Shown here one piece after another: positions 1,485 to 63,329 of a DNA stretch of 64,000 nucleotides (the first letter of the stretch is position 1; each line of letters begins with the position of its first letter). The notes under the pieces are model-generated. The model made no database searches. It was not told the origin of the DNA and saw only the letters and a program-made list of their open reading frames with translations. The position numbers and the translations under genes are program-made. This stretch comes from Diphasiastrum complanatum (taxonomy: Eukaryota; Streptophyta; Lycopodiopsida; Lycopodiales; Lycopodiaceae), in contig CM055095.1 in the NCBI GenBank assembly GCA_029204225.1, positions 44,171,184 through 44,235,183 on the forward strand, read 5' to 3'.

Positions 1485-1731
1485 TGTTATGAACGTAGCC
1501 ACGGCTGATCTAGATTTAGTCTATGAAAGCATCACATAAGCAAGACGAAAGCAGGAGAGAGAAAGCTTAAAGAGACTAAAGAAGGAGATCATATCATAAA
1601 CCAAGTAACAAATGACACAAAATCCCTACTTATAGCCAAGAGGAAGCCCTAAAAGGAAGCTTCCAGTGGCTAGGGCCAAACTGAGAGGGAAAATAGTGCG
1701 CCCTCCAAGAAGGCCCCCACTCTCAGTAACA
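1485..1731 (-). repeat. LTR of the gypsy-like element
   Basis: This 247-bp segment starts TGTTATGAAC and ends CTCAGTAACA, so it has matching TGTTA/TAACA ends and the canonical TG...CA termini. It directly abuts the primer site. The minus strand contains CTATAAG at 1635-1629, a plausible LTR promoter. As this is the 5' LTR of a minus-strand element, the rest of the element lies left of the window, and the target-site duplication cannot be tested. Confidence 0.75.
1629..1635 (-). promoter_or_regulatory. TATA-like box in the LTR
   Basis: CTATAAG on the minus strand lies about 145 nt before the inner LTR end, where the U3/R boundary of a short plant LTR would be. It would drive transcription toward lower coordinates into the leader and gag. 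Confidence 0.45.
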
Positions 1732-1753
1732 TGACCAAATAACCAATATAGTG

Positions 1754-1890
1754 AATCATAGGGCCCAAGGCCAATAATATGGTCTAAATGTCAATAATAG
1801 GGCCCAAGGCCAACCATATAGTCTAAATGTCAGATAATGAATAAAAAAGGGCCCAAAGCCTGCCTATGCATAAAGTAAAGTAAATGTAAA
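1754..1890. repeat. Short tandem repeat of about 45 bp
   Basis: Two clear copies and one degraded copy of a unit with the core AGGGCCCAAGGCCAA...TCTAAATG follow one another just outside the LTR. No coding content is seen. Confidence 0.6.
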
Positions 1891-2140
1891 TGGACATGGC
1901 GAATGTAATGAGCCGAGTCCATAACTGGTGTATAAATCTCAAGTATCACGAAACATGGGTGAGCAGGTGGAGGGCAGGGAGTGTGGACTAGATTGGTAGG
2001 CAACGTTGACTCAATCTTCACCCTACGTACGACTCCATCTGTATCAACAGTACCATCACTATGGCTCGAAGGAACCGATGTGAGGGAAGTGGCAGCGATG
2101 ATAGATTCTGGAGCGTTGATGGAGAGCAAGTTGTCAGTAG

Positions 2141-2330
2141 CGCTGATGGACAGGGGGTCGCTGGTGGACAGGGGGTCGTTGGTGGGTGAATCTGCATTCA
2201 GCGATGTGGAGGGAGGGATCTGGACCAGCGATGTGGAGGGATGCTGGACCAGCGATGGGGTAGATGAGGTGGTGAGCGATGTGGAGGGAGGGACCAGCGA
2301 TGAAGAGGTGGTGAGCGAGACCAGCAATGA
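2141..2330. repeat. GCGATGTGGAGGG minisatellite
   Basis: The unit GCGATG(T)GGAGGGAGGGA(CC/TC) recurs irregularly. Long ORFs on both strands here (an acidic 157-aa one on plus, a Ser/Thr/Pro-rich 219-aa one on minus) follow from the repeat lacking stop codons. Neither resembles a known protein. Confidence 0.55.
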
Positions 2331-2486
2331 AGGAGGGGCCATCGGTGGAGGAGAAGGTTGGGCCAACGCTGAGGGAGCGTGGACACGGGCAGATGTGCGT
2401 GGGGGGGGGGGGGAGCATGGGCTCCCCTTCCCTTTTTTGGCCATAGACAGCTGAAGGAACACCCGCTGCAGATTAGGCGCCATCTC

Positions 2487-2489
<3 letters not shown>

Positions 2490-2538
<49 letters not shown>

Positions 2539-2660
2539 TGACTCGTATGTTGTGTGTGTGTGTGTGTGTGTGAGTGAGGTAGAGGGAGTGTGTGTGTGTG
2601 AGAGAGAGAAGAGAGGGAGAGTGTGTGTGACGTGTGTGTGTGTGTGAAAGAGAGGGAGTG

Positions 2661-2716
<56 letters not shown>

Positions 2717-2875
2717 GAGGGAGTGTGTGCGTGTGAAAGAGAGGAAGAGTGCGTATGAGTGAGAGGAGAGGGAGAGTGAGTGAGTGAGTAAGTGTGTGTC
2801 ACTTGTGTGTGTGCGTGTGTATGTGTGTGAAAGAGAGCGAGAGAGAGTGTGTGTGTGTGTGTGAGAGGGAGAGTG
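2490..2875. repeat. Compound GA/GT microsatellite
   Basis: A (GA)n run of about 46 bp is followed by alternating GTGTGT and GAGAGA blocks to about 2875. It lies just upstream of the hAT pseudogene. ORFs over it are low-complexity artefacts. Confidence 0.9.
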
Positions 2876-2970
2876 AGGTTAGAGCTTAGGTTTTAGAAAT
2901 TAGGATTAGTTTTTAATTTAAAGTTTGAATTTCATACTATTGCTTTGTTGACACTAGATAGCTATTAGCT

Positions 2971-5900
2971 ATGCTCAGACAATGGGATCCTTTATGGGAT
3001 CAAGTCACCCTTAATTCAGGTTATGGCACGTCAGGAAGAAGTGGACTTGCAAGTATTGCGGGAATACTTATGGAGGTGGCCCCGTTCGAATAAGTGCGCA
3101 TCTTTTACGTCTCCGAGGATACGAGATCACTATTTGCACTCAAGCACCAGAGTCACTAAGGATTGCCGGGATTGGGGACGACTCTCATGCTACTACTTCA
3201 GCCACAGGTGATTCTTGTTTGATCTAAAGCTAAAATTTCAAAGTTCACTCTATAGTTTGATTACTAATGAGTAATTAGTGACTATAATTTATTAGCATCT
3301 ATGACTCTGAGTCTGTGTCATGTGACCTGTGACCCACTGACCTGTCAGATGTCTATGTTTGTCATGATTCATTGAATCCATTAAGGTTTAAACTTTAAAC
3401 ATTTGCATTGTGGCATGTGCACCATTATTGTTACAGGTGCGGCAGAGCGCCGAAATTCCACATCACAGTCGTCACCTATAGCCGGCACTAGCTCCGCTGC
3501 AGTACCCATTTCATTTTCTTCTGGAGAGACTCCTACAATGCCAGTAGGTGGGGCGGGCAGTAGTGCTGTTGGTAGGGCTGGAGTTGTTGGGGGACGGGGT
3601 CGGGGACATGTGAGAGGCAGGGATGTTTATGTGGCAGCAGTCGCATAGGGATGCAGTTGTTGCTACTGTTAGGAGGTGCTTTTACTTGTGCGACCTCCCC
3701 TTTCATTTGGCTATGACCCCTGCATGGAGGGATATGATGCGAGTAGTATCTCGTATCGGTGTTAAGTGGGAGGGCCCGACCATGGAGCAGTTGAGGACGA
3801 GAGAGCTACATGCTGAGCGGCAGTCCGTGGATAATGACCTACAGCCCATTAGGAAGTCATGAGCGAGGTATACCTTACATCTTCAAAACCTTTGCACTTA
3901 CTACTTTCAAGTTTCAATTTACAAATTTGCAAGTTAGTTAAAAGGAGTCAACTTTCAAATTTCAACTTTATTTGACTCTTTGGTGTTCAATGCTGAGTGC
4001 TCACTGCTCTAGCTGGTAGGTTGTAACCTAGTAGCCTGAGGCCTGCAAGTTACTCGATAGTTGAAACTATTGTCGAATGTTCTAGGTATGGATGCACCAT
4101 ACTATCAAATGGTTGGACAGATGCAAGGAGGCGCCATATTGTGAATATATCGGTGCCTTCTTGCATGGGCAACATGTTTTTGAGGTCCATTGATACGTCA
4201 GAGCCAGTCATGGAATTGGATGGCAAGAGATTGTTTGACTACATCTCACAGACCATTGAGGAGGTCGGAAAAGAAAATGTTGTCCAAGTATGCACTTGCC
4301 ACTTTCAAGTTTCAACATTGAGCTTTGAAGTTACATTTTGTGAATCGTTATTATTGTTTTAAATGTTGCAATTTGCATTTGCCATTTAGGCAATTACAAT
4401 TTTTTGCGAATTTCGACATTCGTTGTGACTTGTTTGAACTTTGCAGATTCCAGAATGCTCAATGTTGAATGTTCATGAGATTCAACTTTGTCAGAATTCC
4501 AATGCAAGTTGTCACGGACAACGTATCCAATTGTGTTGCCATGGGGAAGCTCGTGAATGAGAGGTACCCTTGGATTTCCTGAACTCCATGTGCAGCACAC
4601 TGCCTTGACCTCCTGGTTGAAGACATTACGAGATTACCCTAGGTCAAGGAGGTTGTAGACATGGCACAATTCTTGGTGAGATTGTCACCAAGAGACAGAG
4701 GGTCTTGAGCATGTTCAGGTCCCATTCCAGCTTGGATCTCTTGAGGCCTGCCCCCACTAGGTAACCAAGTTCCAACCTGTTTCCAATTTTTTGATTTGCA
4801 ATTTTGTTTTAGCTCAAGTCTCAATGCTCATGGAGTTTGAATTTCGCTATAGTCTGCTGCCTATGACCAATTACCATTCTTATTTCATCCTAGGTTTGCC
4901 TATATGTTCCTTGTTTTGGAGCGGCTCATAAAAGTGCATGCAAGCCCAAGGCAAATGGTTGTTTCAAACCATTGGGCAGAGTGGGGCCCATCACGAAAGG
5001 CCAGGGCCAAAAGATTTGAGGCGACCGTGATGGGGACTGCATTTGGGATGATGCATGCGCCATTATCATATCCATGCAGCCTATCTATAGTGTGTTGCAC
5101 CTTACTGATAAAGAGGGTTACACTCTTCTCTATGAGTTTATGGATAGGTTGGGAGAGCAGCTTCAAAGTTGCACTAGGTATATTACTACGTTGAAAGTTG
5201 ATTCTTAATTGAACATTCATGATTAGTTAATAGTAATGAATATTTGCAAATTTGATATTCATGATCGGAATCAGGGTTCTTGAAACTTGAATATTCAAAC
5301 TTCACTCCTGATTATTTGCAGGCTAGAAGAAATAAGGGGCCTGTTTCTAGACAGGTGGCAGTGGTTCCATCAACCTCTGCATGTCGTGGCTTGCTTGCTT
5401 CATCCACTATGGAAGAAGGAAGATCGATTCCATGATCGAGAGCTCAGGCAGGGATGGCATTCCTACGTCTCCTCTGTCTACCCTGATCCTAGGGATCAAG
5501 ATGCACTCATGGATGACTTGAATTTATTCAAGTATGTAATTAGTAATTACAAGCTCCTAGCTAGCAATACATACTTGGCCGTTATAAATTATTACTTGCC
5601 ACTTGGTGCCATCATGAATCATGATTCAAATTTCATCTATGTAGTATGTACTGAAGTCTAAGTTAGTAGTAAGCATTTAGTATTTACTATTTTGAAGGGT
5701 GATAAATGTTGAATGTTGAATGTTCAGGACCGAGCACCTCGATTTCAGTCGTGCAGCTGCCATGCTGAGGGGAGGGCAATTGTGCCATGTTTCATGGTGG
5801 ATGAAGTATGTGAATGATGTTCCCAAGTTGCAAAAACTTGCCATCCGCGTCCTCTCACAAGATTGCGCAGCAGTTGCATGCGAGAGAAATTGGAGTGTGT

Positions 5901-6610
5901 TCTCTCTGATTCATACGAAGAGGAGGAACAGACTTTCTACTGCGCAGCTAGAGAGGTTGGTGTACCTGCATGCCAACCTACGGCTTCTGAAGAAGCTAAG
6001 GGAGACCGAGGAGCCCACACAAGTAATCTGAATTCTAATTTATGTAGAGTGACGAGTCTACCATGATCTGTCTGGAGTTTGGACTAAGTACCTTTAGGCT
6101 TCAAGTTTCAACGTTAAACGTTTAAATTTGCTATTTTTTGTGGAATCGATTAACAGTACTGAGAATCAAGATCTTGGTTTAATTCCATAGGAAAATCTCG
6201 ATGACATCGATGTGGCAAGGGTTCTAGACTTGCCACCAAGAACACAAGAGGTCCGGATGTCTATAATTTACTCCATCGGCCTTATTAGCTACAGGTTGAT
6301 TTCAATGCCCGACTCCCCGATTCACTGCTTTATATCAGTACTTTGTAGATATACTAGATACTAGATTGTAAATTGTAATTTTTAAGTTAGAAGTAATGTC
6401 AATCCTAAGTCTTGATTCCAATTTCCTTGTGTGCACTACGCAAGGCCTACCACTCGAGCTGCTGCAGCACGTAGGACCAGGAGCGCAGCAAAGGGTCTAA
6501 GCCATCCAGCAGTCTCAAACACCTCTGAGAGTCCCTCTGACTCAGATGAGGAATCCGCCACTGAGGGTGAGGATGAGGATGAGGATGATGAGGATACAGG
6601 GCACCTAAAC
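2971..6610 (+). pseudogene. hAT transposase gene, decayed, intron-bearing
   Basis: Domains appear in hAT order. First comes a BED zinc finger at 3024-3206 (WTCKYCG, then H and C ligands). A DUF659-like core at 4087-4288 reads NGWTDARRR, then SIDTS and EEVGKENVVQ. The next block holds TPCAAHCLDLL near 4580-4620, followed by FLVLERL and a PLHVV segment. The C-terminal dimerisation domain at 5720-6031 is well kept (ACERNWSVFSLIHTKRRNRL). An acidic Asp/Glu tail follows at 6431-6600. Intron-like GT...AG gaps separate the blocks, for example 3208-3436 and about 4289-4446. Two in-frame stops sit where Trp is expected (about 4580 and 4639), both explained by G-to-A change. The DPLWDQVT motif just before the BED finger is in another frame. 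hAT proteins cut and paste DNA transposons; this copy cannot make a full protein. Terminal repeats were not identified. Confidence 0.85.
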
Positions 6611-7046: not shown

Positions 7047-7343
7047 TTGGGGTTTACACATGTCATAGGAAGTCTAGTACCAAGTAGATACATCCAATTT
7101 CATGAGAATGCTCTAGAGAATGCAATTTCAAGAGGAGAAACTGTGTATGGTGACTATGGTCACTTTCCTCAGTCAATTATTGATATTGTCATGGATAGGT
7201 TATTAGGTTGCGAGAATCTATTCATGCCCATTGCCAGTACAAAGCTTATGGCCCTTGAGAAATCATGCTCAAGTCACAAGTGCATACAAGAAGTATGCAA
7301 AGACACGAGTCACACGACCATCATCATCTTTAGAGTCTTGTAA
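7047..7343 (+). CDS. Unrecognised 98-aa ORF
   Basis: The ORF is normal in composition (GDYGHFPQSIIDIVMDRLLG in the middle) and not low-complexity, but it matches no family I recognise. It lies between the hAT remains and the last visible ATM exon, so it may be transposon-derived. Whether it is translated is unknown. Confidence 0.2.
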   Translation: MGFTHVIGSLVPSRYIQFHENALENAISRGETVYGDYGHFPQSIIDIVMDRLLGCENLFMPIASTKLMALEKSCSSHKCIQEVCKDTSHTTIIIFRVL

Positions 7344-7745
7344 CTTGTAAGTAGTAAGTACTAAGAGAACAAGAAGTTTAGCTCGTGAGGGTTTGCATGC
7401 CCATTTAGTAGGTACTTGATAACGTGTCAACAATCACACTTCTATGCATGCAACAAATCACAGTCTCAAACATCCAAGAACTTCAGGAAATTATAAATAG
7501 TAAAGTTATAAACTATACAATGTACTGACCAGTGACCACCGACAAATCACAAATTACAATTCAAGAGTCAAAAGTTTAAACTTTAGTCTTTAAAGTAAAA
7601 GCATAAATAACAAGAATGTCACGCGTGGCCTCAAAGCTCAAGCCTGAGACACCATGAGAGTCATATGTATAACTACTATGCTAGAGCCTAGAGTATGCCA
7701 CTGTCATCTATGCTGAGTATTGAGTGCCCCCCCCATCTAGGCTCT

Positions 7746-7840
7746 AGCTGCCCGCCTCGGACGTTGTAGTCGTGGAGGCACTGGCATGTCCTCACGCTCA
7801 AGGTCATCAGACTCACCCTCATAGAATGTTCGTCAACATA
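7746..7840 (-). pseudogene. Charged tail fragment resembling a hAT C-terminus
   Basis: The minus strand reads TFYEGESDDLEREDMPVP, then a PRRAARA tail and a stop. An acidic stretch followed by a basic end recalls C-terminal tails of BED-type hAT proteins. No transposase core is seen with it. The surrounding 7344-8521 stretch otherwise shows only short, unconvincing ORFs. Confidence 0.25.
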
Positions 7841-8521
7841 AGGAAGACAATTTGAATGCCATGCAACTATGCTCGGACCTACTAAAAATCTCAAATAGAA
7901 TGTTCAAAATGGTGGCGCCTTTGCAAGAACAAATTATGAAGGCTCAAAATGGTCATGTGGTAATTACAACATTTTGCAACCACCAGACCCAAGTGATTAT
8001 AACACTTTGCAACCACCACAACACCTTGCCCTTTATTACTTCTAGCTATTATCTCTATCTTTGTACTTCTTTTAAGTTTGGCACAAGTCCTTTGAGAGAA
8101 TTTATCATGTACTTGGTCTCTATTCAAAGTCGCATCTTGGTATCATGCAAGTAGGATAGCAAAGTAAGAAGCTTCAAACGAGAGAAATTTGCTAAGAGCA
8201 GGTGCTAATTGATCCTCTGGGTTGTTTGCTATTAAGCACATCAAAATAGACAAACAATCTTTAATTGTTTGATGGCGGACTTAAATGCAACTCGTATGGA
8301 AACATGAATGCACAATTACTTCAAAGCTACTATAAAAAGCCTTCATAAACAAATTACAATGAATAGTAGTGGTTATTTTTGTTTGAAAACCATATTATTC
8401 AAAAGTACCATTCTGACATAATTATCTACACATCTACAAGACAATAGTTTTCCATATAACTCTAACATTTCCAAATTATGGTTTTGATTGATTCCACACA
8501 GCATTATATTGACTTATTTAC

Positions 8522-11500
8522 CTCCATTGTGCATTGCTGCAAGTGTTTCTTGACAACAGCATTTGAGGCGGCTCTTCGCCAAAGAGCGCTCAATTCTTGT
8601 AAGCATCTGCATCACAAACTCAAATTGCAAATCTAAATTATCTACTTCTCTAAGCGACTTTAAAAGTTGCAGTAGGTCATAATATAGGAGCAAGGATGCC
8701 CAAAAAATTGAATAAGGTTTGATTATTTTTGCTTGCTCATTTTAAAATCAAGCTTGTGATATTGACTATACAATTGCAGGATGGCCAATATTTATACCTC
8801 AGGGTCCATATTGAGGATTGGAAAGCACGAGTATTAACTGCATCAGAAAAGAGTCTGCAGTTCAATAAATGCTCATGTCAAATTCATTTGGAAAATCGAA
8901 GTTAAATAACTACCACTACCACTACCACACCCATATCATACATCCTGGAGAGGGGAAAAAAAACTAAAATGTTGGCACTGGAGAGAAGATACCTTTCTAG
9001 GTTCAACGCAATCGCCTCTAACCAGCTAAACCAAGTTTCTCTAGCAAACTTGAACCCAAAGCGCCGAATTAAAAATGAAAATGCACTACACCTGCAACAT
9101 GCACGATGCAAGAGATAGTGACAATTTGTTCTCGAACCATTGTATGCGAGTTGAATGCATCAAAAACTCTTTGCAACAAAAGTTCATGATTGAAAAATTA
9201 AAGCTTTAATCTAAGAAAACAAAGCAAATAATCAATCTACCAAATGAAGGATCACATGCAAGCACATCATTAGAAGAATGAAAGTTGGACACAATACATC
9301 TCAATGTTTAAACTCCAATTGGAGTGACTAGTGTATCGTTGGGATGCACTGGTAGATTGAATGTCTTGTTCCAACGCCTAGATGAGGTAACACATGGAAT
9401 TTGAACATCTTGAATGAAAAAGACATGCACAATGCTAAACACCGGTATGAGCAAGTGGGTCAACTAAAAAACTGTAAACCCACAACTACGCAAGCAATGT
9501 ATAATAATATAGAGGATAACGTCCATAAGCATATCATAAAAAAAAATTGGAGTAGGTCAAAGTGCTTGAAGAAGCCAAGAATGTTCGAGACTTCATCTGT
9601 AAATCCATATTCAAATCATGACTTTGTGGGAGTTATCAACCGAGTGCCACATCAACAATTTAGAAGCTATTATAATCTAGTAACAAGATTTATCATTATT
9701 TATCAAAATGTAGACTATACACTAGTCCATTTGATCTTCTCATCCTCAATTCACATACTCGCAATGCACTTTCGCATATTGAACGACAAAACAGGCCCCC
9801 AAGTGCGTCATATAATGTAATTAATGAAGTCCTGGTCCTCCCTATGTCTAGAACAACTTGAGACTTGTGGAGTAGATAGGAGGAGACACGTCTCTAGGTA
9901 ACTTCATGTCTCTCATGTATCAATTTACAGTTCTCTAAGATCAATCTTTGTGTGTTCTCTCCCCTCCTCTCTCCTGAATGCATTTGTTGTGTGCCCTAAA
10001 CTTCAAAGTGGCGTCAAAGTAGAATATGAATAAAACCTACTAATCTAGAACCAACTAGATTTATTCTATGTCTAGAATAGAATAGGTACTAGGAAAAAGA
10101 GAGAGAACCACGTATAGTTATGCCGAAATCCGAGTTACTGAAATTCTTTATTGAGAATCTTAGTTCAGCCCTCATCTGGAGTTTCATGCCTCAATATTGG
10201 TGATAGCGAATGATGTGACAGAAGCTAAATTCTTGTTGCAGATTTTGCAACTAGGATAAACCAATGATACAGGAGTTGTTGACTATGGACAAAGTTGATC
10301 ATAAAATCTACACGTGTTTATTGATTTAAAAAGGCTTTCAAATAAGTTTAGTCCAAGGTACTCTTTAGATATTTTCAGAAAAATCCTCACCTTCAATATA
10401 GTTGGGTTCTGAAAACCACTTCAACCACCAATGACAAAAGGCAGAAGAGATGAAAAGGGAACAGATGGCTCGACTACCTATTTCAAAAATAAAGTTATGA
10501 AAAGACTCACTTTACAAAACGGCATGCAGCGGCAAGAGTGAGTGTCATATTTTCGAATCAAACAAGAAAGAGCTACATAAAAAGTTGTGATAACCTAGAT
10601 TATTCTTATTTGTCATTTGACATTAGAATGAATCTATTACGATAATGTTGTGATGGAATTTTCAAATACTTACAAGCATTATAAGATAATCTGTATCAAA
10701 TAAATAGTCTTGAGGAGATTCAAATCAAGTTGAATTGTGCGAAAAGAATATAGAGGATCAAATCGAGCTCTAGCCAAAGGATTTTAAAAAATCCTAAAAC
10801 ATTCCAAATTCAACAGATTTGGAAGTAATGGGGGAAGTTTTCAAGAACTTTGACTAATTAGAATTGACATTCGAATCCAAAATCATTTTGAATCAAATAA
10901 ATTCAAACCAAAAAATCCCAAACAGAGAGGTCATCTTGGCCCCTTAATACTGTGCATGAATGTGACGTGATGCAATGTAATATGCACAATACTTGTCATA
11001 CATTCAGTTAAATTTTCTTTCTACTACTTTATATGTTCTATTTTGACTTTAATTACAGGTATTTTTTTTTTGAGACATTACTATCTGTGGGTTGACTCTA
11101 ATTTTAAGGTTCTAGCCCAAAGGCGTGAAAGGTTATACAAACCTATTTTTTGGTAATCTTCTTGATCCCTTGGATTCCATGCAATGGTCTTTCGAACCTA
11201 TGTAGGAAACCCTCAGCAGAATTACAGTCTGTCGCTTTTAATCACTCGGCCACTAAACAAACATTCTCTGAAACAACTACATTTTTTAGATTTACAAGTA
11301 CATCACATAGATTGCACACGGGCGAGTACAAGCAATCATTCAGCCGCTTATTTGATCAGCTTATTATTATGCAATTGTTCCACAGTCGATTTATAAGCGT
11401 AGGCGAAACTCTCTTTGGTTCTAGAGGTCTATTGAGTTGCTTTTATCAGCCATCTATACTATCTTCTTATTTGATTCTGGCAACTTACCACAAAGAGTTC

Positions 11501-18116: not shown

Positions 18117-18164
18117 TTGTGTTGATTATCATAACCTTTTCGGTTAATTTTTCTTAACAGACAC

Positions 18165-18623
18165 ATGGAGCAATTGTCTTCAGGAATTCGACTCATGGAG
18201 CGATTCAATGGTGTCAACTTTCACATATGGAAGTATCGTATGAAGATGATATTGTTAAAGAAATATTTATGGGATGTGGTTGATGGATCCTCGATCCTAC
18301 CACAACAAGATGGCGATTTTATAGGGAAGTCGAATGATGTTTCTACATTAGACAAGTCGATCGTGCTATACTCGAAGAAGAAGAAACACTCAAAAAAAAT
18401 TGCTATCAATAATTCAAAGTCAGATACACAACCAACACAACAAGAAAATTTAAAACATCAACATGCCAAACTCTTCTACAAGTATTGCAAAAAGAAAGGA
18501 CATGAAATAAAGGACTACAGAATCCTAGTGGTGAAGAACCAGCTGGCTCATACAACAATCACTGATGCTTCAGAAGACAAATCAACCAAAAGCTGTTTAT
18601 GGCCGAATCGAACAATTGTCTAG
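18165..18623 (+). pseudogene. Copia Gag, shortened
   Basis: The 152-aa frame begins MEQLSSGIRLMERFNG and has the Copia Gag signature RFNG-NF-IWKYRMKMIL followed by LWDVVDG. It jumps quickly to FYKYCKKKGHEIKDY, a CCHC zinc knuckle with two of three cysteines lost. Copia Gag is normally 250-350 residues long, so the middle is deleted. A second Gag scrap of the same family lies at about 54570-55050. Confidence 0.8.
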
Positions 18624-18639
18624 ATTCTATCTACTCTAG

Positions 18640-20830
18640 TGTGACACAAGACATGACTTCTAGACGAGATTGGTTTACAAGTTTTTATTCGACACATCAT
18701 GACAACACCATTCATTTTGGAGACGCTAGCTCTCTACAGATCAAAGGGAAATAAACATTTACCATTAGATTCGATGATAGTTCATCTCGATTTTTCTAGA
18801 ATGTTTTATATGTTCCAACCTTGACCAAGAACCTACTATCGGTTAGTTGAATTGCTAATCGAGGCCACACTGTCACGTTCGATGCAGATCAATGCCTCAT
18901 TCGAGACAACAACTCAAATATTATGGTCAAAAGGGTATAGAGATGGTCATCTCTATATATTAAGTCATGAATGTGCACTCTCTCCATAAGAAAAATCTTT
19001 GTCTACACCTTCATCAGACAAGAATATCCTATGGCACAAACTCCTAGGACATTTCCATATAAGAACAATAACTTATATGTTATGCAATAAAATTATCAAA
19101 GACTTAGACATTAACAAGTCCTCATTGAAACAGCTTTGTTAGACTTGAATTCTTGGCAAACATGCAAGGTCAAAATTTCCTAAAGGCCAAGCTCATGGAA
19201 CTAAAGGCATTCTGGATCTTATTCATTGTGATCTATGTGGTCTGATGCAGACCACATCGTGCAATGGATCAATGTACTTCATTACATTTATCGATGATTA
19301 TTCTTGAAGAACTATTGTCATGTTTATCAAGAACAAATCAAAAGCATGTATGTGTTTTCAACAATTTAGACGACTCTCTGAGACTTCAAAAGGAAGAAAG
19401 AATATTGAGCTCTACACATAGATGGAGGGGGAGAGTCCATTCAAATGCAATGAATGACTTTCTAAGTGAATATGGGATCTAGAGGCAGTATTCTTCGAGC
19501 TACACTCCTTAGCAGAATGGAGTAGCCAAAAGAAAGAATCGAACTCTTGTAGACAATCTTGTCTCGATTCATTCCACTTATGCACCTTGTCATTTTTCTT
19601 TCAAGTCGGTCATGATGAACAGTCAAATGTTTGAATATCTACTCGAATCACGCATCCACCAAAGAGGTGTACACCTCAAGCTTTTGGGGCAGTAGTCAAG
19701 GAGCCACTGATTGTTCGTGATGCACTATCATATGTAGATTTTGATAATTGGAAAGTAGCAATGGATAGTGAATACAATTCACTCATCAAGAACTAGACTT
19801 GGACTCTTGTTGAACCATCAATCAAAAGAAAGATAATCAATTGTAAATGGATCTACCAAAGAAAATATAATTTTGATGAATCTGTTTTGAAATGGAAGGC
19901 AAGACTTGTAGCCAAAGGCTACTCACAAGTACCAAGTATCAACTATACAGAGACCTTCGGTCCTGTCGTCAAACTTGCATCAATTCGAATCTTATTGGCA
20001 ATTGTAGCAACAGAAGACCTTGAGGTACGTCAGATGGATGTACAAACTGCATTTCTAAATGGTTTTATCCACGAAGATATCTATATGCATCAACCCACAG
20101 GCTACATTGTCAAAGGTTAGGAAGATTCACCAATGGAGCCAGGACTTAAGCTCAGCAAAGACATGTGTCTTTCAACACCCGTTAAGACTTCAGACATGAA
20201 AAGCTATCCATATCAATCTTTTATTGGCTAATGTATGTGATGATGTGCACCAAACCTGATCTGCATATATAGTAAGCACACTTCCTCAGTTCATGTTGAA
20301 TCTAATATTCGAAAACTCAAAAGAGTGATGAAATACATTTAAGCAACAATGAACCAAGTTCTTTGTTATTCTGGTAACTCTGCTACAACACTATGCATAT
20401 TTGGCTATTTTGATTTGAATTGGAGAGGAGACTTAGACACCGAGAAGTCCACTTTCAGATACTGTTTCTATCTATCATCTGCACCAGTTTCCTGGAACAA
20501 CAGAAAACATAGGTCAATCTCACTATCTTTGACCGAAGTTGAATATGTAGCAGCAACACAAGCAACTAAGAAAGCTATCTGGTTGAGGCTTTTTCTACAA
20601 GATTTGAACTTCAAATAGAACAATCCGACTACCATCTATTGTGACAACATCAACTGCATTCCTAGATTTCATTATAGGACGAAACACATAAGAATTCAAT
20701 TTCATTTTGTTTGAGAGAAAATAAATTTAGAATGTGTAGAGATGATTTACTGTTCAACAAATCTTATGGTAGCTGATATCTTTACCATGGCCTTCCCTAA
20801 GGATAAACATCTTCTATTCAAGAAGATACT
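18640..20830 (+). pseudogene. Copia pol (protease, integrase, RT, RNase H), decayed
   Basis: Modules follow in Copia order. The GAG-pre-integrase segment near 19020-19200 reads LWHKLLGHF. The integrase part near 19200-19520 includes FITFIDDYS and ends in an NGVA-like motif with stops. The RT N-terminal part at 19740-20120 has KWKARLVAKGYSQ, then VRQMDVQTAFLNGFI. A deletion removes the catalytic YVDD region. RNase H at 20349-20618 has the NRKHRSISLSLTEVEYVAAT motif. Several stops and frameshifts break the frame, so the element cannot move by itself. Confidence 0.85.
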
Positions 20831-21559: not shown

Positions 21560-21641
21560 GACACTTCAATAATCGTATATGTCCATATGTTGGTGTTTAA
21601 GACACTTCAATAATCATATATTTCCATATGTTGGTGTTTAA
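21560..21641. repeat. 41-bp tandem duplication
   Basis: Two adjacent 41-bp copies of GACACTTCAATAATC...GGTGTTTAA differ at two positions (21560-21600 and 21601-21641). There is no coding meaning. Confidence 0.85.
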
Positions 21642-22221
21642 GACATGTCTAAAGCAACACAAAAAAATCATGCATATGGGGAATTCTTTTGATGACTGCA
21701 AGTATCAAAGCTCTAATGTATCAAAATGGCAACCTTAAAGAACAGTTTAAAAATATATGCAAAATCAAGCCACTATAACCTATGCTTCCATCCTTGCTCT
21801 GACTTTTTCTTGTTATTCATTCTTATGGGCTTTTTTTCACATGAATCTTGAACCTATGACATTCAAGAGCATTGTTGGTTCTCAAAGATATCAAAAGCTT
21901 TATATTAATCTTTTATAGGAAATTTATAAATGACATGCTACATTCAAATGATTGTTAAGAATTTGTCCCCCAGGCATAAACCATGATTAGAGATGAACCC
22001 TAAAGATTGGTCGGCGAGTGTTCCTTTTTGGTCTTGTTGATAGCTTTTTTTTATGATACTTGTTCCAATTGAGATGAATTTGATAATCTTGTCCAATCAT
22101 ATGCCATCAAAGAAGAGCTACCAAGTTTGGAGGCCTTACAAGGTGTACTTATTGCTGAAGAGTGTAGACAAGAAAACAAGCTCGTGAGGATGGAGAATTT
22201 GAGACTTATACCCCTGACTGT

Positions 22222-23530
22222 ATGAAAATATTTTTTAATCTCCATGGTCTTGAATTTTTTGCTAACTCGAAAACTTTTTCAAAAGAACCTAAACTTGACA
22301 GGTCTTCGCCTTTTAGTACGTCGAAACATTGCCTTATCTCATTAGAAGACCGTTCGCAAGAAGAAGTGGAGACTGTTACTCATAAATATTACTTGCCTCC
22401 TCCTGCTGAAGTCTCTCCCTTTAAACCTAGTGAGGCTCATTTTACTAACCCCCTTATGCCTTATCGTATGTTTGAAGATCTCTTAAGGGTTGTTGATAAT
22501 AAAGCGTGGCTGTTTGGTAATTTTGCTATGATGGCTCCTATTTTTGCTGATATGTGGATAATTCTTGGGGACCTGGAGGTTGAACCAAAAAAGATTAAGG
22601 AGTTACATAGAAAAATGACAATAGATGAATATTACTTAATTGATAGACATCTTTGCTTACCTGCCATGTTCAGTATGGATCAATTTGAACCATCAATATG
22701 CCCCTCGCCGCATGGAATTTTCTGAAGAGTAAAAATGTGTAAGGTAAAAATGCTGAAAAAACTAAAAATTACCTTGATGAGGCTTGGCAATCTGGTTCAT
22801 TCTCAACAATCTTGATCTTTTCATGCCTGGGGATAGTCTAAAAATTAAACTGTATACTTTCCTGATGTGGCTATCCTCATAAGCAAAATTAATTGTGAGA
22901 GCCTCTTTGATATTTATTTACTTTAGAGAGTTTGTTATTGATGCTGTGAAATGCCTTTCGAAGAATCCTAATGATTGTTTGTTTCCTTCCTTGAGCCAAA
23001 AAGGTATAGCATTTATTGAAAAAGCCTTAAAACCTGGTACATTCTCTTCTAACAATAATGAGACTCCACCTAAAAGGTTAAAGACTCCTTCCTTTCGCGG
23101 GTGGTCACTTTTTTTCACGTGGAAGAACCTCTAGAACCTTCATTGGGCGACAACAGAAACAAATGTCTCTTCCCTTGCTGAAACCTTTCTCCCCATCTAT
23201 CACCTGCATTACTACACCCAAAAGCTCTAACAGTTAATCCAGCAGAGGAAGAGGAAGGTTTAATGTTGCTTACTTCTCTATACAAAATTTCTTTCATAAT
23301 ATGCTAGACTTATGTATGATCGAGGTCAAAGAAGATGTATGGAATGCTGTTAGATTTGGTTGGAAATTCACTTCTAATTTATGTTCTACCCTCTACAAAC
23401 TCGTGGACACTTTCTATAATCTCAGGGTTGAGGACATTCCTACATGTATCTATAGTAATAGTAGAAGACTTAGCCCGTTCCCACACAAAACATGGGGCCA
23501 CGTCATTTCTACAACTCAGACTTGGTAATT
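22222..23530 (+). pseudogene. Upstream coding remains of the Penelope-like element
   Basis: The 167-aa frame at 22222-22725 starts MKIFFNLHGLEFFANS and contains FEDLLRVVDNKAWLFGNFAM. A second frame at 22895-23134 contains GIAFIEKALKPGTF. A third at 23301-23528 contains EDVWNAVRFGWKFTSNLC. They lie directly before the RT frame, on the same strand, with normal protein composition. No domain is recognised and no GIY-YIG endonuclease motif is visible. They look like parts of one N-terminal region broken by frameshifts. Assignment to the RT element rests on position. Confidence 0.4.
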
Positions 23531-23619
23531 GATTCTTGGTTGCATGTTGAACTTAAGAAAGGCCTAATTCACATTCATGTTCATAACTCTAATATAACTT
23601 AAGCTTACGAAGTAATTAA

Positions 23620-24945
23620 GATGTTTGGCTGAAACTTGCTGACATTCTTGAGTTTTATGAAAAGGTTGAGGCCTATGCTGATTTTTTTAAAGAAAATATC
23701 CTTTATAGACTTTCTATTCATAATTCTGGAAAGCATAATCTGGTATGCAAGGATGACATTGCCTTAGGAAGGGAAATTAGATGGCTTTTGTCACACTTTT
23801 ACATTTGTGGTTTAGACAAAGCGCCAAATAGCCCTGTATTTTTATGTAAACGTTTGATGAGACTAGAGGCCTTAAAAAGACTGGAAAGTAAAGATTTTAT
23901 AGAGATTGATACACATTTTCATGACGTGATTAAAGAGATACACGAACAGATTTTTGTCTTTTTTCCATCTCTTGTGGTCCAACATATGTCACTTCCATTT
24001 CTGATGGGGATCTACAAGGCACATAAAGACACATTCAGATGGCTAAGCAACGCACATGCTTGTATTTTTACAGAATGCGCACTTATGGTGACCTATATTC
24101 TTTCTTCATGTATTGAGCCCCTACAACTCTTTTGCAAAAATAAACAACTTGAATTTTTTCTTCGTAGCGGTGCAAAGCCATCAGTTTTCTAGATTACAGA
24201 TGTATATGATTTTTCCATTAACTTACCAGAGGACCTATTCAGTGTCTTTTCAGCTGACATCACCAGGTGTTATGAGTCTATTCCTATCTTAGGGTCAAAT
24301 GGGTTACAAGACGTACTAAAAAAGTGATTAAAATTTCATTTAATCAGTTTGGGCTTACTTTTATCAGCTTTAAAAACTTCCCTTGTACACCAAAAAAAAA
24401 GAATCTGGTCTAAGTCTAGATATCTTAATAGTTTCTCCTTTAGTGTTGATGAGCTTATTTCCCTAAAGGACTGGCTGTCGCGAAGTATGCATGTTAGTTT
24501 AGCTAACAAAGTGTGGAGGCAGGTTTGTGGTATTCCAATGGGGTTCTCTTGTTCCCCTATTTGGTGCAATCTATACCTTTTTTTCTTTGAACTCGATTTT
24601 TGCACTAGACTGGCAAAATTGAATAGATGGGATATACTTGATAATTTCATATATCTCTTTAGATACATTGACAATATTTGTCTGATTAATGCACCTGATC
24701 CCCTTCTTTTTGTTGATACCAACGCTATAACCTCGTCTGATAACCCATTTTGGATCTACCCCATGCAATTTGTGGAAATTAAAGCTGAAATTTGCTGCTT
24801 TGCAAATTGCCATAATGGGATAGTATGTGGAACGAGGACTACTTTTTTTGACATGGAAATTATTGTGTCATCGGTCAAGTTTGCATCATTCTTTGTCACT
24901 AAATTTGATAAACGAATATCTCTCCCATTCGTCTTACGCATATAA
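23620..24945 (+). pseudogene. Penelope-like reverse transcriptase, nearly intact frame
   Basis: One frame runs for about 440 codons with only two stops (TAG 24190-24192, TGA 24325-24327). RT landmarks occur in order: GLDKAPNSPVFLCK ahead of the fingers; LPFLMGIYKAHK then FRWLSNA; motif A FSADITRCYESIP (Asp at 24256); motif B GIPMGFSCSP at 24529; motif C FRYIDNICLIN; and a YP-x-F-V-E-I segment. Motif C has Asn (24673-24675) where the second catalytic Asp of YIDD belongs. The K-x-H-K fingers motif, the GIPMG-CSP block and the DKA motif resemble the Penelope-like RTs common in invertebrates and reported in some green-lineage genomes. Copia, gypsy and LINE RTs differ clearly. The RT call is strong; the subfamily is inference. 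RT would copy element RNA at chromosomal nicks. Confidence 0.75.
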
Positions 24946-25378
24946 AGTCATTTTATCACAAATATTTCCTTTACTTTACATTTGTGATAATCCAAAGGAT
25001 GCTATGTAGCAAATGAAAATAGTGGTCGATACCTTTGTTAAAAATGGGTTTGATGAAAAAAGACTTCTATCATTGACTGGAAACTTTCTGGAGGGCTGCT
25101 TCCTTGGAGCCAGATGTTGTCCTTTAACAACTCGCTTCTTATTATGTAAGTTCGCCATGTGTTTTAGGTGTGCGACAGGTATAACCCCACTAGGTATACC
25201 TGTCGCACTACCTAGTGTGGTTGTCCTTCTTCGGGTGTTTGTTGGTGTATTGCTGCATATCTTGTTTCTTGTTGGTCTTTTTGTGGGTTGCCTTTATGTT
25301 GTTGGTTCCCTGATGACCTTTTTTTCGTGGCCTGTGTTTTTTAATTCTCTTCCTCTGGTTGTTTCTTTTGCTTTGTGA
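24946..25378 (+). pseudogene. C-terminal tail of the Penelope-like RT
   Basis: After a stop and a frame change, sequence continues with ISQIFPLLYICDNPKDAM, a stop, then VDTFVKNGFDEKRLL. Related RTs have a similar ISQ-x-Y-R-x-C...L-x-x-GF/GY segment after the palm (thumb region). The last part, to 25378, is hydrophobic and Val/Leu/Phe-rich and is probably read-through into 3' untranslated DNA. Confidence 0.5.
25170..25217 (+). other. Interlocked inverted repeats in the 3' region of the RT element
   Basis: GTGCGACAGGTAT (25170-25182) pairs perfectly with ATACCTGTCGCAC (25196-25208). CACTAGGTA (25188-25196) pairs perfectly with TACCTAGTG (25209-25217). The order is A-B-A'-B', so the two hairpins overlap in arrangement and share the base at 25196. 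No hammerhead core (CTGATGA...GAAA) was found nearby. It may be an RNA structure recognised by the element's RT. Confidence 0.6.
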
Positions 25379-25527: not shown

Positions 25528-25631
<104 letters not shown>

Positions 25632-25735: not shown

Positions 25736-25849
25736 TTTATCTTTCTCATGGCCCATATTGCTATCTCAACAAGAGGATCAAATACTATGATATAATGAAA
25801 GTTCTCAAACTAGTAACTATATAATTTAGAAGTTGATTGAGGAATCATC
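25736..25849 (+). repeat. Left arm of a perfect 114-bp inverted repeat
   Basis: From TTTATCTTTCTCATGG to GAGGAATCATC, this segment is identical, base for base, to the reverse complement of 33618-33731. The match stops sharply at both ends. The enclosed interval is 7,768 bp. The arm has no long ORF and no TG...CA ends. Confidence 0.9.
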
Positions 25850-26839
25850 AAAATATCTTCTAGACAACTTACTATACCATCAGATCATGCACAAAGATGT
25901 TATAAAGGCTTCTTTATTGCCTTGATTGAGGAGTTATTGATAGAAAATTGGAAGACTTCATTGACATAGCTCATATATGCCTTAATACATAAAGTAGACC
26001 TCCAAAGCTACAATAAGTGTCAACTATGACTATCTAATCGATTGCAAGCATGCCATAGCATAACATAGTAAGCATGAAGAGGAAATGCATCACATTGTGT
26101 TTATCTTACATAGAACGAAAACTACATAGGATGTTTCTATTAATCCTTTTCATACCATAAGAGATTGAATTGCTTAAAAAGCAATCTCAAAGTGAAGGAA
26201 AACATATTACGAGTAACACAAGACGACAAAGATAGCAAAGCCTAAAGTTAAAGACTAAACGAAAACCGTTAAGCCGTAGCAAAAAACCATCACATTGATC
26301 AGAACGTTTGAGTAATAAGTAGCATCATAATAATATCTTAAATGTGAAATTTAATGTCCATCATAATAGTGCAAGTTTACACAAAAAAAACAGCTCATCA
26401 TCAAGCAACTTCTCTAAATCCACTAGAACATAAAGTTTTCAACAAAAGTAGAAGCTTTTTGATTGCATTCGCAGTCATCCTTTTTTTGGCACTGTGACAT
26501 GAAGTCAACATTAGTAACATTGCCCATAGTAATAAATTTATTTGTGGGTGTGTGTGTGTGTGTGTGTGTGTGAAAATTACATTGGAGTATGGACTGAATA
26601 TTGATGGTAGGATGTAGCATTGTTTTCATTGGTTGTACTAATTCATATAATACAGGTAGAGTTGACATGAGAGAAAATGTTAGGTATAACCTCAACAACC
26701 ATTGCATGTGGTAATAAAAGCAGCCTATTGATGCTTATCTACTACGAAACTTGAGTACCAAGCCGTTAGTCATGCCATACATGATGCCAAATGGTTGAAA
26801 TGCTTGATTGCAAATCACAAGTACAACTATAATCACATG
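25850..26839. other. Non-coding stretch with a GT microsatellite
   Basis: AT-rich sequence with no recognisable gene. A (GT)n run of about 25 bp lies at 26545-26571. One ORF across it is low in complexity. Confidence 0.6.
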
Positions 26840-27129: not shown

Positions 27130-27790
27130 TTTCTAAATAATTTGACATGACAGATCTAGGACTAGTTCATTAACTGCTTGGTATTCAGATCCTTCATGAT
27201 CGAACCAAAAAAACATTCTTTTGAAGCCAATAGAGGTATATGCAAAACATTCTAGAGAAATTCAGAATGCTCGACTCAAAGCCAATTGATTTGCCAATGG
27301 ATCTCGAACTTAAACTCAATAGAGATTGTGTCCTTCAATAGATGCTGAGATTTTTAACATGAAAAAATTATCCATACCACTCACTTATCGGTTCACTGAT
27401 GTATGTGACGGTGTGCACTAGACCTGATCGGGCATATATAGTAAGCACATTTTCTCAATTCATGTTGAACCTAGGAATCCAACATTGGAAAGCACTCAAA
27501 AGAGTGATGCAATATATTCAAGTGACAAAGAACCAAGTTCTTTGTTATGCTGGTAACTCTGCTACAACTTTATGTTTATTCTGCTATTCTAATTCAGATT
27601 AGGGAGGAAGTCTACTTTCGAATATTATTTCTACCTATAGTTTGCACTTGTTTCTTGGAATAGCAAAAAGCCAAAGTCAATCTCATTATCTTCGATTGAG
27701 ACCGAATATGTAGCAACAACACAAGCAACTAAGGAAGCCATCTAGCTGAGGTTTCTTCTACAGGACTCCTGAACTTCAACCAAATTAACT
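27130..27790 (+). pseudogene. Copia RT C-terminus and RNase H fragment
   Basis: With stops and shifts the plus strand encodes a DMTDLG segment, SLMYVTVCTRPDRAYIVSTF at 27390-27450, then CYAGNSATTLCLF and a degraded RNase H end. The last part closely resembles element A at 20349-20618 (CYSGNSATTLCIF), so both derive from one Copia family. Confidence 0.75.
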
Positions 27791-27824
27791 CAACTACCAT
27801 CTATTGTGAGAACATCAGCTGAAG

Positions 27825-28140
27825 ATGGTAACTATAAGAATTATTATATCTATTGCACGCTATTTCAAGTGGAGGATGTTCCAACTTGATGTTTCTAATG
27901 CCTTCCTCAATGGCTACCTAGAGGAAGAAATTTATATGGAGCAACCCGAGGGCTTTATCAAAGAAGGTGATGAATCCAATGTGTGTCTCTTACAAAAGTC
28001 TTTATGGGCTTAAGCAAGCCCCAAGTTCTTGGTATGCAATGCTCAATTCATATCTTATCTCACTTGGATTCAATCTAAGTGCATATGATCCATCTTTGAA
28101 TATATAATTTGTAAATAGCAATCTTGTTATTATCATCTTG
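27825..28140 (+). pseudogene. Copia RT fragment of another family
   Basis: The frame contains FQLDVSNAFLNGYLEEEIYM, then QPEGF, and after a one-base shift SLYGLKQAP. These are standard Copia RT motifs. It abuts the preceding fragment without a linker and continues into unrecognised sequence at 28141-29028. Confidence 0.8.
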
Positions 28141-33366: not shown

Positions 33367-33617
33367 GTCCTAATAATGTATTTCTTATTCTGAGATTTGT
33401 AGAAAGGTGGATTTATGCAAGACTTGAATCTAAGATAAATCTCAAAAAAGGCCTCTACACCAGGACCTTGGGTGACAAAAGTAGTCAGTATTATTAGTAA
33501 TTCCAAATTCTCGAAGAAGAGAGAGATGAGTAGTCTCAAATCTAGACATTTCTACGAAAATAGAGAATAGTGGCAATAAATAGAACAATAAGTTTTCTCC
33601 TTGAAAGAAGATCTTTG

Positions 33618-33731
33618 GATGATTCCTCAATCAACTTCTAAATTATATAGTTACTAGTTTGAGAACTTTCATTATATCATAGTATTTGATCCTCTTGTTG
33701 AGATAGCAATATGGGCCATGAGAAAGATAAA
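33618..33731 (-). repeat. Right arm of the perfect 114-bp inverted repeat
   Basis: It is identical to the reverse complement of 25736-25849. Just outside it reads GACCCTTGT, and just outside the left arm GGCGCTTAT. These 9-mers agree at 6 of 9 positions, so a target-site duplication is not convincing. Confidence 0.9.
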
Positions 33732-36358: not shown

Positions 36359-39300
36359 TCATGGATGAGCTTTGAATCGATGTAGTAATTCCAACGCTTG
36401 CTCAAATCTGTCTTCTTGCAAAGCAAACCCAAACCTGCAGTAGGGTGTATGTCCTGTCCAAAAGCTGCTGCTAATGCAGAGTTGAGTAACCCCAAAAATT
36501 GCATTTTTTATGTTTTGACTGTCCAGTGTTACCTTCCTTGGAACACCATGAACGTCTTCATAGGAGATGATCCGGCCTTCGTAGGCTGCAGGTCGAGCTA
36601 TCAAAGAAACACCAGCCAATGGTTCCACTGGATCCCATCCACAATCAGTAAGCACCTACATACCAACAACAGTGGGGTTACACATTTTCAATTGCTAAAT
36701 ATAGCACGGATACAAAAGAGCAAGGATTGTCCCCCACCACCAAGATTGTCCCCCATGGTTGCAATGGATAAGACCCAAGCTTGAATAATGGTTGCCACAG
36801 AAAGGGACATGGGAGCCGTGTTATCCAAATCTGGCTATGCCTTTATGTGGATGTATGGGGCAAATATTGTACATAATCATTTTAACACAACTAAATGCCA
36901 ACAGATCATGAAAACAAAGGAACGGGCTTTGAGAAGATGTAGTACCTGTTTCAATTTTTGAGCTCTTTGTTGTAGTAGTGCTCGTTGCTGCGAGAGACCT
37001 TGGAGAATCACACTGGATTCTGAGCCCTGCATTGCCATACCAAGTAATTTCTTTACAGTGTAGTTTAAGGTGCGATGAGGCTTAGTCAGGCTGGGTGCGC
37101 CCTTGAGTGCTTCAATGAACACGGGGTCTTGGACTGCAGCAAACCCAAATTCAAGGCCTCCAGTTAAGAGCTGTGTTGAAAATCCACCAATAAGCGCCAC
37201 TGCCATTCTCGATTTCTCACAAGCTGCAAAACCCACATCAGAAAGATCCCAGGATTCTTCACTGTTACTGTTATATTCCAGTCCCGAGAATGAAGTATCA
37301 ATAATCAAACGAGCAGAATGCTCTTGGCATACAGATAGGATTGAGTGGATCTCATCATTTGTGTAGATCATTCCAGTGGGGTTGACTGTTGGTCCAGTTA
37401 TATACAGCCAAGGTTTCTTTTCAGCCTTCAATGCTTCATCCAGTAACTTTGCTGTCACCTTAAAGCCATCAACGGACTGTGTTGCAATCTTTTTCACTTT
37501 GGCTTGTAGAAAGACAGCAGCAGATACATATGTGCCATTGGAAGGAGTGATAAAGAAAAGGGTTCCTTCCTCCTGGACACATGCTAGTACAAGCTTGGTG
37601 AAGAGTGACATGCAACTGTCACTTAAAATGAGCTCGGTAGTCTTTTCAGATGAGCTTACTCCATACTTACTTGTCATGAACTGCATGATTTCAGGCCTTG
37701 GGTCGGTCTCAGAATCACTGATGTTTTGCCGAGCAAAGCCTTCAAAAACTACCATTTTGATAGCTGAGGGAAAGGGTAGGCAATTTTCATCCAAGTCCAT
37801 ACGGATTGGGTCTGTTGGCTGTAACGGAAAATTGGACAGTTCTGCCTTATCCATCGCCAAAACAGCTGACTCACAAAACCTGATGAAGCCAGATGGTGCT
37901 TCTTTGCTGGGTGGTCTCTGGAGCAACAAAGTTGGCCAATCAGGTAAAAGCTTGCATAGAGGAGGCACTTGTAATGTAGGGATGTAATATACCATGAAGA
38001 TAGCAGAAACTATACCCCATAGTCGGTGGAATGTTGATGAATGCCTCCTTTCCTCTCCTCAGGGTCAAGAGCTTGACTTTAATCATCCGCACAAAAGAGG
38101 ACATACAAGAAATCAAAATAGAAAAGACTTAAATGGCAAAAGCTAACCTGGGCGGTTGTGTGTCGATTAGGAAGTTGAAAGCTGAGCAACTCGTGCAGAA
38201 GACAGCCATAGTAAAGCTGATTGATTACTGAGGTCCGACCATGAATTAGTTCCACTGTCTTGCTCATACCATGAAGGAATTCTTCATTCTCGGAAACCAT
38301 GAAAGCCACCTCCAAATCCGAATATACCTGATTGCTATCTAGAAATGTTAGATCCTACCTAAATCACTCTAAACCCTAAACACAAATGATATGATCCAGA
38401 TAAGAAAGGCCAATATGTTTCAGGAAAGCATTGCCCGAGAATTTGCGCATATGTACACTACTCCTGCAACATTTATACCGGTTCAATAGATGCAATGACT
38501 ACCTGATTTTTGACAAGCCCACACATGATTGTCACGTGAGGTGGAAGAGGATGAGCTGCCAAGTACTGCAATACACCATTCGTACCAGGTAGACTAGAGA
38601 GCCTAACATGATCAGAAATGTCCAAGAAAAGTCTAGCATTGATTTGGGCAGATTCATAAATCAGTTGTTCGAAGGCCGTGGAAGTCTTCATTTCAAAATC
38701 TGCCAAGCTAGTGATAACAACTTGCGGCTTCAAGTGCTTCAAGAGCTGCATAACTAAATCTGCTCGACATGGAGTTTCCAGCACAACAACTGCATGACCT
38801 GACTCATAGTACATCTCTTTTGTCGTTGGGAGCTCCTGCAGAGTGTCAAATCTGTCAGTAAGAAATTTGGTCTAACAGAATTCGCACAGAAAATAATTGC
38901 AATAGGCATCGAGGCAAGTTTCCAATAGTTATTATGACCAGAATGACTTACAACTTGAAATAAGCTGACGTATAAAGTGTATCGAACTAAATTACCTCAT
39001 GAGGTAACACAGTAAGCCATTTCTTAGGTAGCCACTTTGCCAGACTTGCCTCAATCAAAGCAAGTTGTGGTGAAAAGAGGTGCAAGATATTTTCAATCAA
39101 AACAGATCTTGATGGCACGACTATGAAGTTCTGCAAGGCATTACAAGACATTTGCTCATGATTTTGAACTGAAAATACTACAGGAGGCTAGTTAAATCGA
39201 ATCTGTGATATTTGCCCAAGATGTCAATGACATATAGAATATTTTGTCAAGTTCCACAGAAAGTCTTGTCAAAATTCAGAGTCCTTTTAGCAAGAACATT

Positions 39301-57330: not shown

Positions 57331-57405
57331 TAAGTCATTTTTTATAAAGTTAGATTGATTTTAGGTTTATCTACACCAGTGTGAAATTGACCTTTAAGTA
57401 GAATC

Positions 57406-63281: not shown

Positions 63282-63329
63282 TAGGCATAATTTACATGGT
63301 AACGATCAGGATCTTTTCTTTCAAAGTGC

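Follow-up and report, generated by a model that had tools for sequence, protein, structure and literature searches.

What does a reverse transcriptase-like reading frame represent within a 64,000-nucleotide stretch of the Diphasiastrum complanatum genome, and to which kind of element does it belong? The stretch, referred to throughout as the window, was placed by genome search at C4:44171184-44235183 of the 1.745-Gb assembly, and positions are those of the window unless another locus is named. An earlier note, made from the sequence alone, had proposed that the frame encodes the reverse transcriptase (RT) of a Penelope-like element (PLE), PLEs being mobile relatives of telomerase. The feature is very probably one dead member, with broken reading frames, of a PLE family present in high copy number, a reading compatible with two of the rival explanations weighed below, namely that the family has a nuclease hidden from profile searches and that it was acquired horizontally. 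The parts of the copy on which the assignment turns are these:

22194-25247, plus strand: body of the decayed PLE copy, from blastn homology to copies L132-L161
23620-24945, plus strand: RT frame, stops at 24190 and 24325, with 59% identity to an RT copy on another contig
23809-23841, plus strand: GLDKA motif
23992-24045, plus strand: fingers motif LPFLMGIYKAHKDTFRWL, containing KAHK, which is exact in 22 of 32 loci
24247-24285, plus strand: RT motif A FSADITRCYESIP, from a motif table over the 32 loci
24324-24404, plus strand: RT segment coding in another frame
24526-24579, plus strand: RT motif B CGIPMGFSCSPIWCNLYL, with its exact pattern 643 times in the genome
24658-24675, plus strand: RT motif C, FRYIDN, where Y[IV]DD stands in 26 of the 32 loci
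24941-25075, plus strand: thumb at the C-terminal end of the RT, read in a third frame, with one stop at 25007, matching SYKVILSQIFPILYICDN...FVKNGFDEKRLL of L150

The frame proper, 23620-24942, comprises 441 codons with two internal stops (TAG at 24190-24192 and TGA at 24325-24327) and is closed by TAA at 24943-24945. Among 200 order-1 Markov simulations of 64 kb each with local composition, none contained a two-stop run of 441 codons, the largest being 301. The frame of about 440 codons with two stops described in the earlier note is therefore present and without equal in the simulated windows; the core motifs it named (K-x-H-K fingers, A, B and YID- of motif C) lie at the positions listed above, and its span for the element, 22222-25378, is close to that defined by homology. 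KAHK and Y[IV]DD are retained across the family at the frequencies just listed, and because motif C of the window copy ends in asparagine, as YIDN, this copy is probably catalytically dead.

Profile searches with the window RT give little at family level. Pfam returns RVT_1 below threshold only (E 0.0054-0.019), as it likewise does for the RT open reading frames (ORFs) of three other copies, and has no match to RVT_2, the Copia profile. Affinity emerges with short profiles. One with two rows, made from the motif B region of the window and of a mussel-derived segment considered below, finds telomerase RT 6d6v as its best PDB match (E 0.043), with the best domain alone at 0.33 and retron RTs at 0.16. 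A six-row profile spanning motifs B to C, its rows hand-picked as five RTs of the D. complanatum genome plus the mussel segment, again has a chain of 6d6v, presumably Tetrahymena telomerase, as best match (E 0.0025) ahead of the best non-telomerase row at 0.072, and telomerase RT makes up four of the 11 PDB rows listed. With this profile the RT is thus closest to telomerase RT, as is expected of PLEs, and together with partial tandem arrangements that form pseudo-LTRs (long terminal repeat-like direct repeats) in some other copies this supports the predicted assignment to PLEs that the earlier note had put forward. Several results tell against it. In NCBIfam the window RT comes closest to a group II maturase (E 0.022, far below cut-off), PDB searches with single RT sequences gave no telomerase match, the window RT on its own finding no RT there at all, and a long, 12-row RT profile had no PDB match, so that the telomerase affinity comes from short profiles, the second of them hand-picked. 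The mussel fragment on its own finds retron and group II RTs in PDB (E 1.5).

If Pfam sees so little, might the frame belong to a host gene? Genes of the rvt type are single-copy, RT-related cellular genes, and such a gene could combine a long RT frame, an additional N-terminal region and a weak Pfam match, as seen here. Copy number speaks against this: the exact motif-B pattern has 643 matches in the genome (328 and 315 by strand) and the reversed pattern none. A search with the RT as query returned at least 99 match rows at E of at most 0.001, the window's own included, which is a lower bound on copies because only the best candidates were scored (95 of 4647 first-look candidates; rows include split copies and near-identical pairs). 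As, in addition, 88 of the 99 rows contain stops and some copies have flanking direct repeats, an rvt gene is next to inconceivable here.

The reading as a mobile family leads on to its history. Other RT rows are 34-73% identical to the window RT, and this spread points to long residence. A FastTree tree over 32 loci, from which L152, L158 and L161 were omitted because they repeat other loci, sets two outlying clades (each with support 1.0, their joining node 0.99) apart from the group of the window. Support is low at several inner nodes, the lowest value being 0.18. The family is a resident, diverse and high-copy component of the D. complanatum genome. The check for further copies proposed in the earlier note has thus been answered by the match rows and motif-B sites, and the rarity it claimed for such elements in land plants does not hold for this genome, with its hundreds of relatives. 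These relatives, the large contig of the 1.745-Gb assembly in which the copy lies and the adjoining Copia elements also bear out that this is plant DNA and not a contaminant. Among the literature matches listed, none had a title on PLEs of D. complanatum, and the family adds an abundant case in land plants beside that of conifers (Wollemi pine). On contig C3, at 54612807-56168490, a 29-base sequence recurs without change at twelve motif-B sites within 1.6 Mb, a cluster that is read as the product of local amplification, or of segmental duplication, from a single PLE copy.

Outside the genome, relatives were sought with a degenerate pattern for the motif-B region in a prokaryote collection of 84,980 species, each represented by one genome. 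It pointed to one contig, L002, in a mussel-symbiont assembly. At 3174-3789 on its minus strand this contig, filed under a Bathymodiolus symbiont genome, carries PLE RT fragments including FDFSTLYTTIPHSKLKDKL; the broken frames and the record title indicate that it is probably host mussel DNA inside a bacterial assembly. Its motif-B fragment aligns with the window RT over 51 residues without gaps at 33% identity (tblastn E 3.7e-6; alignment z score 17, as against 0.1 for the window's Copia RT), and with the residues fixed by the pattern masked its score was reached by none of 20000 shuffles. Taken alone, the contig's fragments for motifs A and C are not significant. By tblastn it is the only clear relative among 122 loci. 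L001 and L003-L122 were rejected as chance matches, the former lying antisense to a long phage-like ORF and the latter having no tblastn E below 3. Searches of viral contigs, phages and plasmids found no relative, one of the viral-contig patterns having required Phe or Tyr where the D. complanatum family has Trp and being therefore able to find animal-type relatives only; a protein scan of prokaryote genomes found no relative either.

The mussel similarity in motif B could be taken to mean that the family was acquired horizontally from an animal, or that the DNA is contamination, and PMC9033089 and PMC9370799 report the Dryad elements of conifers as arthropod-derived. Against this origin, the similarity to the mussel is lower than that within the genome, and hundreds of sites spread over the assembly, with copies as diverged as they are, imply long residence. 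Such an origin is very unlikely.

The region upstream of the RT, which in the window has two recognizable parts, bears on the question of an endonuclease:

22168-22725, plus strand: N-terminal ORF of 185 amino acids, of no known family, with homologues ahead of the RT in L161, L162 and L163
22883-23134, plus strand: second N-terminal block in another frame, ...FVIDAVKCLSKNPNDCLFP..., from a nucleotide match of 22787-23035 to L161

By itself the first of these ORFs is unconvincing, a single stop-free run of its 185 codons occurring in six of the 200 simulations; what supports it is the presence of homologous ORFs in other copies. By blastn the window matches L161 at 22194-22787 (75%) and at 22787-23035 (71%), and L150 at 23301-25247 (67%), with the alignments breaking at 22787, where L161 has about 82 extra nucleotides. 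At the second block the ORF of L161 reads ...FREFIIDALKKLVENPHSPLFPGL.... Five copies were examined in 6.5-kb stretches; the N-terminal region is common to the window, L161, L162 and L163, and pieces of it occur in L164 and C15. The ORF at 22168-22725 has no Pfam match, the N-terminal ORFs of the copies have none above cut-off (one sub-threshold match, to CFAP61_dimer, has an E of 0.17), and a PDB search covering the second block found no match to it.

The GIY-YIG endonuclease domain was sought on both sides of the RT, as the earlier note had suggested, and none was found near it. There is no match on the plus strand of the window between 18 and 27 kb, nor in 10 scanned ORFs of L161-L164, seven of them N-terminal and the others RT ORFs. 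The C-terminal domain typical of Penelope/Poseidon and Dryad elements is thus absent from that part of the window and from the RT ORFs of L161-L163, and the N-terminal domain typical of Chlamys/Naiad elements is absent from the seven N-terminal ORFs and from the sequence upstream in the window. Those RT frames of the family that run to completion close soon after the thumb. The profile works in this genome, with at least 150 matches listed, of 471 candidates, and all 25 of those listed on C1-C3 lie at least 91 kb from the motif-B sites there. In three loci examined the matches are small stand-alone ORFs, and no RT of the PLE family was found in eight GIY-YIG loci. On C8, between 0.6 and 3.2 Mb (for example L168, L169, L172, L173 and L175), small GIY-YIG ORFs (...YKIASRVGKMVYIGQTTNL...) are dense, with copies on other contigs too; they are possibly a mobile family of their own, or a nuclease acting in trans.

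Overall, the element is likely to be endonuclease-less. The rival is a permuted PLE of Chlamys/Naiad type, its N-terminal endonuclease diverged past profile detection or lying in the uncharacterised N-terminal region. The long conserved region before the RT in the window, L161, L162 and L163 would accord with this, as would the origin of the pattern-found RT relative in a mussel-symbiont assembly, since a 2021 title by Craig reportedly has invertebrates hosting a clade of that type. The lack of GIY-YIG in the N-terminal ORFs scanned, though the same profile lists so many genome sites, and the distance of those listed on C1-C3 from the motif-B sites make a hidden nuclease unlikely.

With the endonuclease-less reading preferred, the ends of the element become informative. 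In the stretch C15:36025600-36037400, direct repeats of 1.94 kb, with 95% identity to each other, bracket the ORFs at 1555-3491 and 7058-8982, and L163 has a 355-nucleotide direct repeat on both sides (92.7% identical). What follows the dinucleotide tract (described below) in L153 is matched by sequence lying ahead of the RT in L155 and in L157. These repeats fit the pseudo-LTR or partial-tandem arrangements described for PLEs in PMC11167929, and such arrangements were seen in related copies only. Long direct repeats around ORFs, as at C15, would also be expected of an LTR retrotransposon with an unusual RT. However, neither RVT_2 nor RNase H and integrase accompany the RT in the RT or N-terminal ORFs scanned, though the window's Copia elements do match RVT_2, and the repeats start with a (CT)n tract and not TG and vary in extent between copies, down to the length given for L163; this alternative is extremely improbable. 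At C15 (TC)n stands at both pseudo-LTR starts and the left flank is unrelated. No flanking direct repeat was seen in L161, L162 or L164 within the stretch examined. Downstream of the PLE copy in L161, at 4589-6498 in reverse-strand coordinates, there is an array of diverged repeats of about 400 nucleotides.

Downstream of the RT, the following stand in or near the window copy:

25170-25224, plus strand: interleaved inverted repeats X-Y-X'-Y' of the 3' untranslated region (3' UTR), placed by adding 22119 to the L131 position
25533-25628, plus strand: (CT)n tract, 591 nucleotides after the RT
26337-26572, minus strand: inverted pieces matching the sequence after the 3' UTR in L141 and L161 (blastn, 71-79%)

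A scan with extrapolated RT ends, no location control and a few weak stems put the best stem within 420 nucleotides after the RT at 236-304 nucleotides downstream in 25 of 32 loci. Helix X would pair 25170-25180 with 25198-25208, and helix Y 25184-25194 with 25211-25221, the two forming together or in alternation. The X-Y-X'-Y' arrangement is present in the window's clade and in a second clade, Y being found in 21 of 28 loci; in a third clade another hairpin occupies much the same place. Folding z scores for four chosen copies are -5.8 for L163 of the third clade and -4.5, -3.6 and -2.2 for three of the other clades. The set used for covariation consisted of 19 of those 21 sequences, 18 of them distinct, two near-duplicates having been left out. 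In it, 92.1% of cells in helices X and Y are paired as against 18.7-49.9% when the helices are slid, and 20 cells are changed on both sides as against 7.5 in shuffles (none of 500 reaching this). Covariation thus supports the 3' inverted repeats in part.

After the 3' hairpin comes a G-rich word such as GGTTGGTGGG and then a dinucleotide tract. A sense-strand tract lies 200-520 nucleotides after the RT in 23 of 28 loci (19 with (AC)n, four with (CT)n and none with GT, AG or AT), compared with two of 28 in equal windows upstream, and in 20 of the 23 tract-bearing loci it starts 326-362 nucleotides after the RT. In the (CT)n clade, ATGG[AG]CTCT, with which the pseudo-LTR begins, comes after the tract in L153, L155, L157, L164 and C15; L163 has another part of the 5' region there. 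The (CT)n tract was dropped as a general 3' mark, most copies of the window's clade having (AC)n.

Put together from several copies, the composite element would run from a pseudo-LTR through the N-terminal region, the telomerase-like RT, the 3' UTR hairpin, the G-rich word and the dinucleotide tract to the next pseudo-LTR. To our knowledge the insertion mode of endonuclease-less PLEs is unsettled. In the scheme suggested here the RT would bind the 3' hairpin of its own RNA and begin reverse transcription on a DNA 3' end situated at the dinucleotide tract or close to it, by the kind of target priming that has been considered for PLEs. As no endonuclease was found in the element, such an end would probably be supplied by nicks or breaks already present or by a nuclease acting in trans, and incomplete synthesis or template re-use could leave partial tandem copies. 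Priming along these lines is possible, at a little short of an even chance.

A number of observations count against the reading as a whole. The window copy has no pseudo-LTR, and at C15, where target-site duplication was checked by eye only, none was seen. In the helices, base pairs with changes on both sides number five as against 4.3 in shuffles (reached by 208 of 500) and further pair types 13 as against 13.0 (reached by 341 of 500), helix Y is without any compensatory change, and the compensation is mainly between two lineages. Some of the 28 loci counted for tracts are near-identical pairs (L134/L135 and L148/L149). The window copy has no AC or CT tract at the usual place, and its (CT)n, being so much further from the RT than the usual start in other copies, is perhaps not the junction of the element itself. 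A hammerhead ribozyme, which an anole PLE has according to PMC11167929, was not found in the window at 19-29 kb or in L161-L165, and Rfam had nothing at gathering score on the window.

A bolder proposal, and a rather unlikely one, is that an endonuclease-less PLE lineage swapped telomeric ends for dinucleotide microsatellites. The RNA would then end in the conserved hairpin, a G-rich word such as GGTTGGTGGG and a run of (AC)n or (CT)n that depends on the clade, and this run could pair with (GT)n or (AG)n ends at breaks to prime synthesis; the N-terminal region would serve as a novel module that binds RNA or DNA. If this were true, each clade would use and spread its own microsatellite. With so many motif-B sites, deep clades, 3' RNA structure and a near-constant microsatellite position, the priming question can be tested by genome comparison.

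The remainder of the window holds other mobile sequences and what is presumably part of a host gene. Copia elements flank the PLE copy, and pieces of them are as follows, family matches covering 18135-18623, 45976-47139, 57793-58689 and positions within 18-20.2 kb, and the rest being recognized by eye or self-similarity:

18135-20656: Copia element piece
27288-28107: Copia element piece
45976-47139: Copia element piece
57391-58689: Copia element piece
61439-63305: Copia element piece

A pair of 126-bp inverted repeats, 98% identical, with sharp ends and unrelated flanks, lies at 25736-25861 and 33606-33731, and a 41-bp tandem duplication (95% identical) at 21560-21641. On the plus strand at 4027-4362 there is a fragment of DUF659 (E 7.4e-21), a domain that occurs in hAT-like transposases. 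On the minus strand, 36877-38058 is an aminotransferase class I/II exon (Pfam E 2.7e-18), beside which stands a second ORF with no family match (38473-38871), and 36877-38871 as a whole is presumably related to the C-terminal part of plant methionine S-methyltransferase, which it resembles; like the Copia elements, the exon points to a plant host.

How, then, does the family compare with known systems? In its workings it is like an endonuclease-deficient PLE. It is filed as PLE only, apparently endonuclease-less and without subgroup, because neither telomeric repeats, as in Athena/Coprina, nor an endonuclease, as in Dryad and in Chlamys/Naiad, were found. Telomerase RT is the best solved relative of the short RT profile, and the YxxIP in its motif A is shared with the PLE family; the D. 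complanatum elements differ from it in their high copy number, in the pseudo-LTRs of some copies and in their mostly broken frames. Their C-terminal RT after a long N-terminal region is like that of Chlamys/Naiad PLEs, whose domain order is reportedly that given by Craig in 2021, and the GIPMG-type motif B is common to them and the mussel-derived fragment, which we take to be Naiad, but no N-terminal GIY-YIG was found where it was searched for. Chlamys PLEs are reported from the brown alga Ectocarpus in PMC12477816. The Dryad elements of conifers, of the Penelope/Poseidon group, are likewise PLEs in plants; they are endonuclease-bearing, or EN(+), according to PMC9033089, and canonical Penelope/Poseidon elements have a C-terminal GIY-YIG domain according to PMC11167929, whereas the D. 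complanatum RT frames that run to completion end soon after the thumb, with no GIY-YIG found downstream in the window. The endonuclease-deficient PLEs of bdelloid rotifers are telomere-associated according to PMC3846280, and here there is a difference in that telomeric repeats (at least two tandem TTTAGGG or CCCTAAA units), which would be expected of Athena/Coprina-type elements, occur in none of 28 D. complanatum loci. Within land plants, PMC9033089 lists endonuclease-deficient, or EN(-), PLEs for Selaginella moellendorffii, Pinus taeda and Picea abies, and, compared by description only, the D. complanatum family is like these in being a land-plant PLE RT without a recognisable GIY-YIG domain.

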